From a virus: a stretch of 31,992 bases of DNA. A model generated the notes under the pieces. The model was given only the letters and a program-made list of their open reading frames with translations, ran no database searches and was not told the origin of the DNA. The stretch spans positions 1-31,992 of IMG/VR virus record IMGVR_UViG_3300034198_003105; one strand, 5' to 3'. Positions 1,360-31,992 of this stretch are shown one piece after another. Position 1 is the stretch's first letter; every line of letters starts with the position of its first letter. The position numbers and the translations under genes were made by a program.

Positions 1360-2567
1360 GTTGTTTGTTTTTTAATTGAAAAAATTATTACTTGTATTAT
1401 TGTTTGAATTTGTTCATCCGTTAAATCAAAATAAACTGGCAAAGAAATTTCATTTTGATATTTATTCCAAGTTTCCGGATAATTTATTATTTTATAACCG
1501 CGCTTTTTATATGCTGTTAAAATTGGAAGCGGTAAAAAATGAACGTTAACCGAAACATTTTGATTGAAGATTTCATCAATTATTTTATCTCTCATTGATT
1601 CATCTATTCCTTTTATCCTTAATTGATAAAGATGAAAGCTGCTAATTTTATCTTGAGTTGTATGCAATGGAAGCATTGCCCAATCATATTTTGAAAATGC
1701 TTTATCATAAAGTTCAAATATTTCTTTACGGCGCGTTAAATTTTCTTCGTAGCGTTCCAATTCAACCAAGCCAATTGATGCTTGTAAATCAGTCATATTG
1801 CATTTAAAACCGGGATGAATAACATCATAACGCCAATTTCCTTTTTGGCTTTTGGATAATGCATCTTTATTTTGGCCATGCAAAATCATTTCGCAAAACT
1901 CTTTATAAATTTTATCATGATCAAATCTCTTTGGTAAATCAAAACAAAGCGCCCCGCCTTCGGCGGTTGTTAAATTTTTAACGGCATGAAATGAAAAGCT
2001 TGTTATATCGGTTAAACTTCCGGCGCGTTTATTATTGAACAAAGCTCCAAAACTATGCGCGGCATCGCTTATTATTAAAATACGGCCAAGTTGTTTTTGC
2101 AAAGATGAACTTGGATTGAATTGTTGCTTTATTAATTTCTCTTTAACTAATTTATTTACTGCAATATAATCGCAAGGAAATCCGGCAATATCAACCAGGA
2201 TAATTGCTTTTGTTCTTGGCGTTATTGCTTTACGAATTTCATCAATAGAAATATTAAAATCATCTTGATTAATATCAACCATTATTGGCTTGGCTCCAGA
2301 ATGAATAATAACGTTTGCGGTTGCGCAATAAGTATATGCCGGCAATATAATCTCATCGCCTTCTTTTATTCCCCAGTAATTCAAAAGAACTTGAACGCCA
2401 TTTGTCCAGGAATTTACGGCAACGGTTGTTTTGCATCCGGTATATTCGGTTATTTTCTTTTCAAAAAGTTTTGTTTTATGGCCGGTAGTAATCCATTTGC
2501 TTTGCAAAGTTTTTACAACCTCATCAATAATTTTATCATCAATTCTTGGAATAAAAAAAGGAATCAT
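1356..2567 (-). CDS. DegT/DnrJ/EryC1/StrS-type sugar aminotransferase
   Basis: 403 residues, full length for the family. These are PLP enzymes that add an amino group to nucleotide-linked keto-sugars. Visible features: substrate loop SKWITTGHKTKLFE (23-36), ILPAYTYCATAN (74-85), the PLP-contacting aspartate in ISDAAHSFG (D168), and the Schiff-base lysine in SFHAVKNLTTAEGG (K197). A charged stretch around residues 138-160 separates the two halves of the cofactor site and looks like a family insert. The gene is coupled on both sides by 4-base ATGA overlaps, upstream to the primase-helicase and downstream to a nuclease, so it belongs to the replication operon rather than to an obvious sugar cluster. 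No dehydratase or other nucleotide-sugar enzyme is next to it; the substrate is unknown. Confidence 0.88.
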   Translation of the reverse strand: MIPFFIPRIDDKIIDEVVKTLQSKWITTGHKTKLFEKKITEYTGCKTTVAVNSWTNGVQVLLNYWGIKEGDEIILPAYTYCATANVIIHSGAKPIMVDINQDDFNISIDEIRKAITPRTKAIILVDIAGFPCDYIAVNKLVKEKLIKQQFNPSSSLQKQLGRILIISDAAHSFGALFNNKRAGSLTDITSFSFHAVKNLTTAEGGALCFDLPKRFDHDKIYKEFCEMILHGQNKDALSKSQKGNWRYDVIHPGFKCNMTDLQASIGLVELERYEENLTRRKEIFELYDKAFSKYDWAMLPLHTTQDKISSFHLYQLRIKGIDESMRDKIIDEIFNQNVSVNVHFLPLPILTAYKKRGYKIINYPETWNKYQNEISLPVYFDLTDEQIQTIIQVIIFSIKKQTT

Positions 2568-4966
2568 AAGTTCATTGCTTTAGTTGTTAATTCATCCCAA
2601 ACATCCCCGGCTTTCGGAGCGTTGAAATTTTCAATTCTAAAATAGCGCCCGGAACTGTTCCGGCCTTTTGTTAATTTTAGTTTGTTAAACTTGGCATATT
2701 CTCCAACCCACTTTAAAAATCTTCGCGCTTCAAGATCCTTCCATCCCGCTGTTTCATTCTTGAACATCTCAAGATAAGAGTTGTTAAATATAAATTCATC
2801 AATCTTTATTGGATTATCATTCACAAAATCATAAAAATCTTTTGATGTTGCTTGGATAAATCTCTTTGCTTCGGCATTTATTGAAACCGATTTAAGCAAT
2901 CCATTCTTTAAGAAGCTTTGCAAGTTGTGAATCATATAATTGTCAAATTTTAACCAGTCAATTTCAGTCCATGAATCAAATAATAACCGGCCATAAATAT
3001 CAAGCGGGGATCTTTGCGCATTAAAGTATTGAAAGAACTCCAGTTCGTGCCTTCTTCGATCATGAGATGAACCGGCGCCAGCAATAACATAATTGGTTGT
3101 TAAAACTATTTTCGGAGAACGCTCAAATGGAATAAAGATTTCATCCTTGTTTTTTCTGTTTACTGTTATGCCTTCGGAAATCAAAGAGAATAAATCTTCA
3201 AAAACAAAATTTTTCTTTACATCATCCAGCGCCAAAATTTGAGAATCCAAATTAACTCTTTGATAAACAAAATCGCCTTTCAAGTTGAAAGCTTTGCCAT
3301 CAATTTTTACAATTTTTCGAAGGTATCCGAGCGCGGTTAACATCAAGGATTTACCGGAACCGCCGTTTGCATTATCATCAATTTCTTGATCATTAAAGAT
3401 AATTGCCTTTTGATCTGTTTTATCTTTAAAAGTATGCAATAAATATCCAAGTGTTGTTTCAAGCGAAGCGGTACGGTTTTCATCTTCATTGCTTACTTTA
3501 TAAACAAGATCCTTGAAATCATTATCAAAGGAATCAAGCTTCGTAAAATCCCGGCCAATTATTTGATTTTCCCAAATGTATCCATTAACATCAATGTAAC
3601 TTTGCAAAACAACTTCTTTCTTGGTTATTTTAGCAACTCCATTTTTAAAGGGGATAAAAGAACAATCAATCGTATCTTGAAGCATCTTTAATGCAATTGA
3701 ATCAATCATATTTAAATGATTCTCATTGAATAGATAAGTTGATTTCGAGCAATAGTTCCAAACTTTTATTTCTCCTTTGCTTAAAAGAAAGGTTAAAACA
3801 AAATCTTTTATTTGATCCGTTGAACTTAACCGAACTTTATTTTCTTGAACGCGCACAAAAGTTGGCTTTTCGGCATTTTCCGGATAATACTTATTGAATC
3901 CATTCTTAACCAAAAACTCCGAATATTTCATCGGTTCGATGCTTATTGTTTCAACTCCTTTTTTTATTTCTATTTGCCAAAATACATCTTCGGTTGTTGC
4001 AAGTTCATCTTTAACATCATTAATTATCGAATCATCAACATTCAATTGTTTCTTTATATCTCGCGGATTGATGCCTTGCTTCAATTTATTCTTTACTTTA
4101 ACAACAAGCTCCGTATTCTCAAAGTATTTGATTCCTTGGTTTGCTTTCTTATAAGCGGATTTAACTGTTTGTATTAATTCGCCTTGTGTGAAGCCAGGGG
4201 AAACAAATTGATTTTGCAAATAATATTCGGCAGCATCTTTGGAAATATTGTATTCACAAAAACAAGCTGCAACTTTAAAAACATATTGGTTCCGGGAACC
4301 TTCGGAAAAAGTACATCCAAAATCGAACTTCATTATCCGTTCAATTATTTTATCTTCATCATTTAAGATACAAACCGGGGCTTTATCATGGAAATCAAAT
4401 CCTTTTTCTTGGTCGATTTGAGTAAACTCATCGCAAAATTCATTGATGTAAGCATCTGGATCATATGATTCAAAACAAACCCGGGAAACATTGCAGCTCG
4501 TTGGATCAAAATAATCCGAATTAAAGAACTTTTGAAATGCTTGGAACCTTCTTTTGTGTTCATCCTTGGTTGATTTGGGTATTTTAATAACCACTTTCAA
4601 ACCTTTGCCCCCTGGCGATGTAAATAATAAATAAACAAAGGGGCAATTTTGTAATTTTTGCCTTTCTTCATTCATTGTTTGTTCATCTGGATAATCATCG
4701 AAATCCAAAACACAAAGCCCGGAATGTTGAATCAATCCATTATCATTGCGCTCATTAAATTGGCCGTTGAACATTATCGCAAGCAACGAATTTTTCAAGT
4801 TTCGATGTTGCTCGGATGTTTCATCTAAATTTCTCAACCTTTCAATCTTTTTATTTAGATCGGAATAGCCATTTTTAATGCGCTCAAAGACTTCAAGCAC
4901 TGTTAATGAGTAAGGAGTTTCTTTTGCGTTAAATAAGCTCTTGAATACGCTAACTTTTGGAATCAT
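2564..4966 (-). CDS. Primase-helicase with VirE-N/BT4734-like and SF3-type helicase domains
   Basis: 800 residues. The N-terminal part resembles the VirE-N/BT4734-like domain: RNLKNSLLAIMFNGQF (55-70), LCVLDFDDY with D88/D90/D91, and TSPGGKGLK (116-124), a primase-like acidic centre. The middle (about 200-280) looks like a PriCT-type helical linker. The C-terminal part is a superfamily 3-like helicase: Walker A NGGSGKS (534-540), Walker B ILALDDV (577-583), a VLTTN sensor (621-625) and an arginine cluster SHDRRRHE (634-641). Together these would prime and unwind phage DNA. It directly follows the iteron cluster and the DnaA-like gene, and its stop overlaps the aminotransferase start. Domain roles come from family knowledge; activity is inferred. 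Confidence 0.85.
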   Translation of the reverse strand: MIPKVSVFKSLFNAKETPYSLTVLEVFERIKNGYSDLNKKIERLRNLDETSEQHRNLKNSLLAIMFNGQFNERNDNGLIQHSGLCVLDFDDYPDEQTMNEERQKLQNCPFVYLLFTSPGGKGLKVVIKIPKSTKDEHKRRFQAFQKFFNSDYFDPTSCNVSRVCFESYDPDAYINEFCDEFTQIDQEKGFDFHDKAPVCILNDEDKIIERIMKFDFGCTFSEGSRNQYVFKVAACFCEYNISKDAAEYYLQNQFVSPGFTQGELIQTVKSAYKKANQGIKYFENTELVVKVKNKLKQGINPRDIKKQLNVDDSIINDVKDELATTEDVFWQIEIKKGVETISIEPMKYSEFLVKNGFNKYYPENAEKPTFVRVQENKVRLSSTDQIKDFVLTFLLSKGEIKVWNYCSKSTYLFNENHLNMIDSIALKMLQDTIDCSFIPFKNGVAKITKKEVVLQSYIDVNGYIWENQIIGRDFTKLDSFDNDFKDLVYKVSNEDENRTASLETTLGYLLHTFKDKTDQKAIIFNDQEIDDNANGGSGKSLMLTALGYLRKIVKIDGKAFNLKGDFVYQRVNLDSQILALDDVKKNFVFEDLFSLISEGITVNRKNKDEIFIPFERSPKIVLTTNYVIAGAGSSHDRRRHELEFFQYFNAQRSPLDIYGRLLFDSWTEIDWLKFDNYMIHNLQSFLKNGLLKSVSINAEAKRFIQATSKDFYDFVNDNPIKIDEFIFNNSYLEMFKNETAGWKDLEARRFLKWVGEYAKFNKLKLTKGRNSSGRYFRIENFNAPKAGDVWDELTTKAMNL

Positions 4967-5010
4967 AAGTTGTCTGTTTTTTGTATATATGTAAAAAAGG
5001 GGCTAAAATC

Positions 5011-5276
5011 ATGACAATAAATGACGATAATCGGGGAATATTCCACATAAAAAAATTTATCGTCATGGCTGTATCGTAATGCTGTTATGCGATTGCTCAA
5101 AGTCATGACGATATGACGATAAAATTTCAAAAATTTTGAGCCAATTCCGCACTTTTTAAAAATAAGGGTAACTCTCATATAAAATTTATCGTCATTGTCA
5201 TGAAATCGGCTACTTTGCAACAAGCATATGGCTTTAAGGCCATGACGCTATTTTTTTTATCGTCATTCATTGTCAT
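5011..5276 (-). repeat. Iteron cluster, probable replication origin
   Basis: The 8-mer ATGACGAT occurs six times exactly in both orientations: plus at 5021-5028, 5105-5112 and 5113-5120 (the last two in tandem), minus at 5059-5066, 5188-5195 and 5259-5266. Four one-mismatch copies are also present: 5011-5018, 5194-5201, 5242-5249 and 5269-5276. All lie in about 270 bases between a DnaA-domain-IV-like gene and the primase-helicase. Such clustered short repeats beside an initiator-like gene are the classic layout of a phage or plasmid origin. The stretch is AT-rich with A and T runs. An 86-codon reading frame crosses it on the minus strand but is probably not a gene. Confidence 0.65.
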
Positions 5277-5636
5277 TCAATAAATGTTTTTATTAATCAA
5301 AGTCTTAAGTTTATTAAGTTCCTTCATGTTTTTGCAATCAATTACTTGTTTTTGCAATGGCTTGTAATATTTCTCAAATGGAAATTCTTCGCGAAGCTTC
5401 AAGGTGCAATATAAATAAAGTTCATCTTGTTGTTTCATCCAATTATGATGGCAATCAATTCCATGAATAACGCTTGCATGATGCTTGTTAAACATTAATC
5501 CAATATGTTGGAACGGCATCCCCTGGGTACGCAACAAAGCGTAAAGATAATATCTTTGATAAGTTATTGCAAAGTTTCTGTTCGGAACATCAAGTTCATT
5601 TTCTTGAATGTACTCTTTAATCATATCTAAATTCAT
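5277..5636 (-). CDS. DnaA domain IV-like DNA-binding protein
   Basis: 119 residues. Residues about 25-65 resemble the C-terminal DNA-binding domain of DnaA: RYYLYALLRTQG, then the helix-turn-helix MPFQHIGLMFNKHHASVIHG, comparable to the DnaA signature IG..FG.DHSTV.HA. The AAA+ ATPase part of DnaA is absent, so this is a free-standing origin-binding or DnaA-competing protein. Its gene ends exactly at the last iteron of the neighbouring repeat cluster, which strongly suggests that it binds those repeats. The ATG at 5634-5636 follows an A-rich tract. It could alternatively be a transcription regulator; origin binding is inferred from family and position. Confidence 0.7.
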   Translation of the reverse strand: MNLDMIKEYIQENELDVPNRNFAITYQRYYLYALLRTQGMPFQHIGLMFNKHHASVIHGIDCHHNWMKQQDELYLYCTLKLREEFPFEKYYKPLQKQVIDCKNMKELNKLKTLINKNIY

Positions 5637-17300: not shown

Positions 17301-17319
17301 TATTATGTATTTTTGTTCG
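17301..17319 (-). repeat. Late-gene 19-base element, copy B
   Basis: Minus strand CGAACAAAAATACATAATA, three bases before the protease ATG at 17297. Read on the plus strand the same bases contain TATTTTTG (17308-17315), an exact TAnnTTTG -7 element pointing at the Stealth gene, so the stretch may work in both directions. Confidence 0.55.
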
Positions 17320-17982
17320 ATGAATTTTGTTTATCCATATAAAAAACGTTCCGAAGAGTTTGAACTCATCCATTCAATCCGATGGATTCGAATGAGTTTT
17401 CCCCTGGCAAAAGTTTATGTTGTTGGCGATTATTTCCCGGATGTTATTCACATCCCTTGCAAACAATTTAATAATATCCGCGGTTGCGATGTAACCAATA
17501 AGATGTTAACTTTTGCAAATCAAATTGGCGGGAAATTCATTTATATGAATGATGATTTCTTTTGTACTCCAAATTTAAAACCCGAAAATCCAATTTATAA
17601 GGGGAATTTAATCGTTAATGAATCTCATCCCCCGCATTATCAAGTTGCTGCAATGAATACCCTTGAATTTTTAAAGTATTACAACCGGCCAACTTTAAAC
17701 TATGAAACCCATTCGCCCGTTTTAATGGATTCTAAACGCTTAATTAAAACATTTGAACAAGTTAATTGGAAGGATGATAATCATTTCATCAAATCAATCT
17801 ATTTAAATAGTAATATCCCCAAGAAATCCATTGAAGGATTCAATTGCAAAATCAATTCATCCAACATTCCAACCGCTTTGCAATATTTGGATGTTCATGG
17901 ATGCTTTTCAACCGGCAAAGCGTTCCTTGATGATGCCGGGGCAACCTGGATTAAAACTTTGATTTTTGCTCCGCAACCATAA
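17320..17982 (+). CDS. Stealth-type sugar-phosphate transferase
   Basis: 220 residues, the only plus-strand gene. Stealth proteins transfer hexose-1-phosphate in capsule synthesis and are recognised by the NDD motif; here KFIYMNDDFF (72-81, D78/D79), then SHPPHYQVA (102-110), NYETHSPVLMDSKR with H131, and a C-terminal FSTGKAFLDDAGATWIK. Length matches the core without N-terminal extension. An upstream in-frame ATG at 17305 exists, but it would put TATTTTTG, a probable -7 element, inside the gene; with the ATG at 17320 the message would be leaderless. Its 3' end overlaps the tape measure gene convergently by 32 bases. Likely a moron acting on host or virion glycans; donor and acceptor unknown. 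Confidence 0.78.
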   Translation: MNFVYPYKKRSEEFELIHSIRWIRMSFPLAKVYVVGDYFPDVIHIPCKQFNNIRGCDVTNKMLTFANQIGGKFIYMNDDFFCTPNLKPENPIYKGNLIVNESHPPHYQVAAMNTLEFLKYYNRPTLNYETHSPVLMDSKRLIKTFEQVNWKDDNHFIKSIYLNSNIPKKSIEGFNCKINSSNIPTALQYLDVHGCFSTGKAFLDDAGATWIKTLIFAPQP

Positions 17983-31426: not shown

Positions 31427-31992
31427 TTATTTATCATTTAATTCAGCAATACACATCGCATAAAACATCGAAGCATGTACTAACTTTTCATTCATAAATT
31501 CTTCTTTCTCAACATTGCGTTCATATTTAAGAACCGTTATTCTTTTGGCCGGTTCGATATGATCAACCTGGTGTATTGTTTTATTATCCCAATCGGAAAG
31601 CAAATCATCGCCGGTTGTAATCATGCAATAAACAAGCTCGAATAATGGCTTATCATATAACAGCATGTATGCAACGCCTTGCCATTCATATTTTGAGTTG
31701 TGCGCTTCGGAACCAAATGCCGGAAATGTTTCCAAACTCCAGGATGTTTTGCAATCAATGATTGAATCTTCGGTTATTATATCGCATTCCCCGGATAAAT
31801 ATTCACTTTCAACCCGAAGATTATTTTTCTTGTAATCGGTAAATCTAACGGCATTTAATAAAGCAATTGATTCAAGTTCTTGATCAATGCCTTTCATTAC
31901 TGGCTTGGTTCTTATTTCCGATTTATAACCATAAAAGTTTTGCTTTGCAATTTCCCGGATGTAAGTTTTTGCCCCTTCCGATAATGCTTCGG
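31427..31992 (-). CDS. PD-(D/E)XK exonuclease (5' end outside window)
   Basis: About 188 residues visible; the frame is open to base 31992, so the ATG at 31897 is not the start. The fold pattern is YqaJ/Cas4-like: LSEGAKTYIREIAKQNFYGY, then KGIDQELESIALLN (helix with a conserved E), LSGECDIITEDSIIDCKTSW with GECD and D-x-K, and a Q motif KYEWQGVAYMLLY. These are the metal and DNA contacts of recombination exonucleases that resect ends before annealing by Erf-type proteins. It is followed by the SSB-like gene after 22 bases. Together with ERF at the other window edge, it suggests one continuous recombination operon across the missing part. Confidence 0.8.
   Translation of the reverse strand, partial: EALSEGAKTYIREIAKQNFYGYKSEIRTKPVMKGIDQELESIALLNAVRFTDYKKNNLRVESEYLSGECDIITEDSIIDCKTSWSLETFPAFGSEAHNSKYEWQGVAYMLLYDKPLFELVYCMITTGDDLLSDWDNKTIHQVDHIEPAKRITVLKYERNVEKEEFMNEKLVHASMFYAMCIAELNDK

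Follow-up and report, generated by a model that had tools for sequence, protein, structure and literature searches.

A dense cluster of short repeated boxes in a 32-kb record from a Bacteroidota-type phage is, with a probability we put at roughly 0.7, the phage's replication origin, and together with the downstream primase-helicase gene it would make up a single functional cassette. The window analyzed here is the entire record, a virus contig of 31,992 bases (IMG/VR IMGVR_UViG_3300034198_003105). On its minus strand, a gene for a free-standing DnaA domain-IV-like (DnaA-IV) protein is followed by the box array and then by the primase gene (Table 1), and Pfam matches agree with both neighbors as originally described. 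The central result, drawn from a comparison of related loci, is a double dissociation of the boxes from the DnaA-IV protein: box type was shown in this comparison to be inherited and swapped with the primase, irrespective of the DnaA-IV gene. Adjacency would name the DnaA-like gene as the initiator, and the sequence-only reading had indeed made its product the specific binder of the repeats. The swap data contradict this assignment because near-identical DnaA-IV proteins are found beside three unrelated box types and the boxes follow the primase.

Exact copies of ATGACGAT number six in the whole 31,992-base record, all of them within 5021-5266, against a window-wide expectation of 1.2 and a count of six that was reached in 0 of 100 shuffles. 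The 10-mer TTATCGTCAT has five copies, all within the array, while its reversed control has none in the whole record. When 300-bp stretches of the window were scanned, the array gave a word count of 6, the next-best word elsewhere gave 4, and the shuffle maxima were 2-4. The whole-record count, the shuffles and the scan therefore confirm what had been read from the sequence alone, namely six exact copies in both orientations at a density found nowhere else in the record. Four one-mismatch copies had been claimed as well; all are present (5011, 5073, 5194 and 5242), but the count was one short, as a fifth lies at 5269. Because such copies are numerous outside the array too (40 window-wide versus 31.5, no enrichment), what stands out is the set of exact copies and how densely it is packed. 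Standard DnaA boxes, of the form TTWTNCACA, show no enrichment in the window (7 versus 6.2), and no Rfam match or tRNA was found in it. A GC-skew plot of the window showed no switch, which is uninformative as an origin test in a genome with almost every gene on the same strand.

Relatives of the primase are numerous in viral contigs, and conserved repeats were looked for at the same place in these phages and found: among homologues with enough upstream sequence, almost all are immediately preceded by a DnaA-IV-like gene, with boxes clustered in the space that separates it from the primase gene. A search of 16 related records over their full length placed the ATCGTCAY cluster at a single site in each. 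Boxes read ATCGTCAT in the clade of the window and ATCGTCAC in neighboring clades, and more distant types include GCGTCAT/CTTGTCAT, GTTGTCAC, GTAGTG, TTTGCAC and TTCCACAT. In some distant primase relatives the 400 bp upstream contain no clear cluster of boxes. A degenerate viral scan could not be based on alignment A2, which was too divergent. Upstream of the primase, L186 and L176 carry TTCCACAT boxes, which are closer to the bacterial DnaA box; a search of limited sensitivity found no DnaA_C match in the 22.5-kb record of L176.

The dissociation is clearest in the L284-L327 clade, where DnaA-IV proteins that are 98-100% identical adjoin GTCA, TTTGCAC or GTAGTG boxes. For example, the L319 and L321 proteins are identical (118/118) and their box classes differ; the proteins of other pairs differ at 1-2 positions. 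Between members of swap pairs the DNA is ∼90-96% identical through the final base of the DnaA-IV stop codon, past which the array and primase are largely unrelated, bar a short helicase stretch, until the sequences become alike again at the primase end. TTTGCAC cassettes exchange exactly at the stop codon. GTCA/GTAGTG pairs are a partial exception in that their primases are still homologous and diverge mainly in the C-terminal domain, being 69-70% identical before this domain and 33% within it. The primase N-termini are BT4734-like in the GTCA and GTAGTG cassettes and of the Prim-Pol type in the TTTGCAC cassettes. In L306, L321 and L300, alternative ori and primase cassettes follow DnaA-IV genes that are almost unaltered. 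Mapped on the gene trees, box class changes nine times among the DnaA-IV genes (at least six changes are forced by supported branches) and twice, the minimum for three classes, among the primases. The other side of the dissociation is provided by L343, which has TTTGCAC boxes and a primase 79% identical, with a DnaA-IV protein only 41% identical over 76 residues, and by ATCGTCAC boxes, which accompany DnaA-IV proteins 26-36% identical to one another. Across the swaps the DnaA-IV gene is under strong purifying selection (crude dN/dS 0.00-0.12); since it has accumulated synonymous but hardly any amino-acid changes, it is a functional gene to which the type of box makes no difference. As the boxes lie next to the primase, recombination could carry both along even if they did not interact. 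The argument about the reader rests on the DnaA-IV protein being unchanged while the boxes change. Covariation between the DnaA-IV recognition helix and the boxes was also considered. A hint of it in L180, in which FNQTHATV is replaced by FEKSHATV and the boxes have changed, was overturned by further members with unchanged helices and different boxes.

The primase-helicase of the window has BT4734-like_N and PriCT_1 domains, followed by the motifs from which we infer its helicase class: a Walker A GGSGKS (residues 535-540), LALDDV (578-583) and TTN (623-625). The Walker A/B and TTN motifs are largely invariant among its relatives. No Pfam helicase family matched the window's protein, and DUF5906 was matched in only one of nine relatives. 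Its C-terminal domain models as a winged helix, a generic fold match with a best Z of 6.6; no P4 or SaPI origin-binding domain was among the matches in this fold comparison, and the domain may still be one. Within the GTCA class, loci with GCGTCA and TTGTCA sub-boxes differ most strongly in windows at residues 741-760 and 341-360 of a 774-aa protein. A column-by-column association with box type gave several primase columns that score well, with 7 of the 12 top columns in the last 150 residues, a result that is confounded by descent. At the wing tip, His occurs with GTCAC boxes and Ser, Ala or Val with GTCAT boxes at 43 of 44 loci, L191 being a possible exception. This rule was noticed post hoc and represents three independent contrasts only, all agreeing (sign test p 0.25), so the association between wing residue and box base is suggestive.

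The array is two-sided, with oppositely directed inner boxes and mirrored pairs whose centers are 76, 90 and 182 bp apart, and this spacing is identical in the window, L017, L018, L032, L037 and L039. The mirror symmetry is individually significant only in L037, L018 and L039 (p 0.24 in the window), so its weight rests on the spacing being repeated across clades. Between the inner mirrored boxes lies a 63-bp gap that is 75-90% AT across loci and 75% AT in the window. The best-conserved element in many relatives is the tandem pair at 5105..5120, and the conserved arrangement consists of such a pair, 8 bp apart, and then an inverted box 45 bp on. As a single strand the array folds far more stably than shuffles (z -6.3), as expected for a nested inverted array. 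The assignment of the array as an origin thus draws support from its anatomy: two-sided iterons, an AT-rich gap, an adjacent primase-helicase gene and a conserved place all fit such a role.

Table 1. Features of the array locus in the window.
Feature	Position	Strand	Basis
Box (iteron) array, ∼10 boxes over 265 bp	5011..5276	.	Repeat counts, density, relatives
Exact ATCGTCAT cores	5021-5028, 5059-5066, 5105-5112, 5113-5120, 5188-5195, 5259-5266		Array boxes
Tandem pair of boxes, 8 bp apart, TATCGTCAYATCGTCA on - strand	5105..5120	-	Relatives
AT-rich array center, proposed melting region (function inferred)	5121..5185	.	24.6% GC versus 34.8% in the window
Free-standing DnaA domain-IV-like protein, 119 aa, outside the swapping cassette	5277..5636	-	Pfam, predicted fold
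Primase-helicase, 800 aa, proposed origin reader	2564..4966	-	Domains, motifs
Primase C-terminal winged-helix region, ∼residues 693-800, proposed box-reading domain	2567..2890	-	Predicted model
Wing tip GRNSSGRY	Primase residues 768-775		Winged-helix region

The DnaA-IV protein itself is real, strongly conserved and the more novel part of the locus. Its sole Pfam match is to Bac_DnaA_C, below threshold (E 1.4e-5; 25.5 bits, cut-off 31.5). The AlphaFold2 model has a pLDDT of 90, and its top three structural matches are all DnaA-containing entries (Z 9.9, 9.7 and 8.8), the best two being complexes of DnaA domain IV with DNA (1j1v, Z 9.9; 3pvp, Z 9.7). The AAA+ ATPase domain III is absent, and the description of the protein as DnaA domain-IV-like without the ATPase part therefore stands. 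In ∼60-kb phages whose primase is related to that of the window (37% identity), two free-standing DnaA-IV-like ORFs are often present, several kb apart and flanking the primase (L204-L283; MW202828.1 [L091, L098, L100]), which argues for a role worth finding. No relatives of P0001 were detected among INPHARED phages at E 0.01, and we found no paper in the open-access literature naming a phage-encoded free DnaA domain IV.

How else might the locus be read? If the array is an origin, the free DnaA-IV protein could be its specific binder and recruit the primase-helicase, as was first proposed. Gene adjacency in nearly all relatives, the DNA-bound DnaA structures among its best fold matches and the agreement, by inspection, of boxes TTATCGTCA with the DnaA box TTATCCACA at 7 of 9 letters all speak for it. 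Against it, L319 and L321 have unrelated boxes next to DnaA-IV proteins that are identical, the two trees give nine versus two changes, and the same boxes accompany DnaA-IV proteins 26-41% identical; we consider this proposal very improbable. Only slightly more credit can be given to a reader that is some other cassette-linked or host factor, the primase merely traveling along. Linkage alone cannot name the reader, but the exchanged segment, from the DnaA-IV stop codon to the primase end, holds no other gene in swap pairs, and the divergence of the primase C-terminal domain where the boxes differ counts against a reader other than the primase.

The boxes might instead be mainly operators through which the primase or another cassette product controls the primase operon, with the origin lying elsewhere. 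The array is directly upstream of the primase, and several relatives have a TATATTTG-like stretch between the boxes and the start codon. However, some ten boxes in 265 bp, arranged in mirrored sets around an AT-rich gap, exceed what repression needs and match published PICI origins, making this explanation unlikely. A regulatory site could also double as an origin, so the two roles are not exclusive. As for chance repeats or a coding constraint, an ORF of 60 or more residues can be drawn across the region (4963-5223), and conserved codons of a real protein would have undone the origin assignment. Besides the repeat density relative to shuffles and to the rest of the window, the intergenic stretch that holds the array ranges in length from 203 to 1051 bp among relatives, with the boxes retained. 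Since the cluster keeps its place and is confined to that locus, the array is neither chance nor coding, and we treat this rival as refuted.

We therefore favor the origin reading, in which the array and the primase-helicase gene form one cassette. We infer that the primase would bind the boxes, probably through its C-terminal winged helix, by analogy with P4 alpha, SaPI Rep and Cch2. Primase-helicase molecules would load as two sets on the two half-arrays and melt the AT-rich center, after which the SF3/D5-like motor would unwind outward and the N-terminal AEP-like domain would prime. The DnaA-IV protein would work with more than one ori and primase cassette, which means that box specificity would not come from it. 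Its role may be that of an accessory factor or a regulator, or it may act on another site, such as host DnaA boxes. We hold only tentatively the idea that it is a separate factor hitting host DnaA sites, thereby blocking or hijacking initiation, or else a universal accessory for unrelated phage origins. Either possibility, if true, would give a stand-alone DnaA DNA-binding domain a use not described before. More broadly, hundreds of uncultured phages with at least three exchangeable cassette types provide a natural experiment on origin recognition by primase-helicases, one in which a single protein-DNA contact, between the primase wing residue and a box base, can be guessed.

Several other features of the record were observed. 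Directly after the primase, at 1356-2567, is a gene for a 403-aa DegT/DnrJ/EryC1/StrS aminotransferase (E 7e-92), whose presence in the replication region is possibly related to DNA-base or sugar modification. The only long plus-strand ORF that is likely a gene, at 17305-17982 among minus-strand structural genes, encodes 225 aa (phrog_7999) with a very weak Stealth_CR2 match. The contig ends within an Erf-like annealing gene and an exonuclease gene (1-377 and 31427-31990). Because these ends lie inside genes and no terminal repeat was found in the record, it is probably nearly complete and not closed.

The locus resembles several known systems without coinciding with any of them. The predicted structure of the 119-aa protein matches DnaA domain IV, but unlike DnaA at oriC the protein has no AAA+ domain, and the swaps indicate that the boxes are not its specific target. 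The P4 alpha protein combines primase, helicase and a C-terminal winged-helix origin-binding domain in one polypeptide and acts with ori/crr. The phage primase would share this layout, with its helicase motifs and predicted C-terminal winged helix in one protein, but it differs in its boxes and its primase N-terminus, and no PDB sequence match to P4 alpha was detected. In SCCmec, the C-terminal domain of the Cch2 helicase binds short iterons (AAGTG) (PMC7581432), much as proposed here for the phage primase; relative to Cch2 and CCPol-MP, however, the phage has primase and helicase in one polypeptide and other, many more boxes. There are also parallels in architecture with PICI origins, in which two iteron sets flank an AT-rich region (PMC6092414), and with SaPI Rep, whose C-terminal domain recognizes the iterons (PMC7581432). 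Here, too, two iteron sets surround an AT-rich region, as mirrored boxes around the 63-bp gap, and the putative initiator would have a helicase motor, judged by its motifs, with the primase linked or fused. On the other hand, the phage array is 5' of the primase gene whereas the PICI/SaPI origin is 3' of the initiator gene, and a free DnaA-IV gene precedes the array in the phage. The record is also that of a phage carrying structural genes of its own (matches to portal, terminase large subunit, tape measure and protease) rather than that of a satellite island. Given these genes and the position of the array 5' of its gene, we do not file the module as a PICI, despite the likeness of its two-sided iterons to the Rep-ori arrangement.
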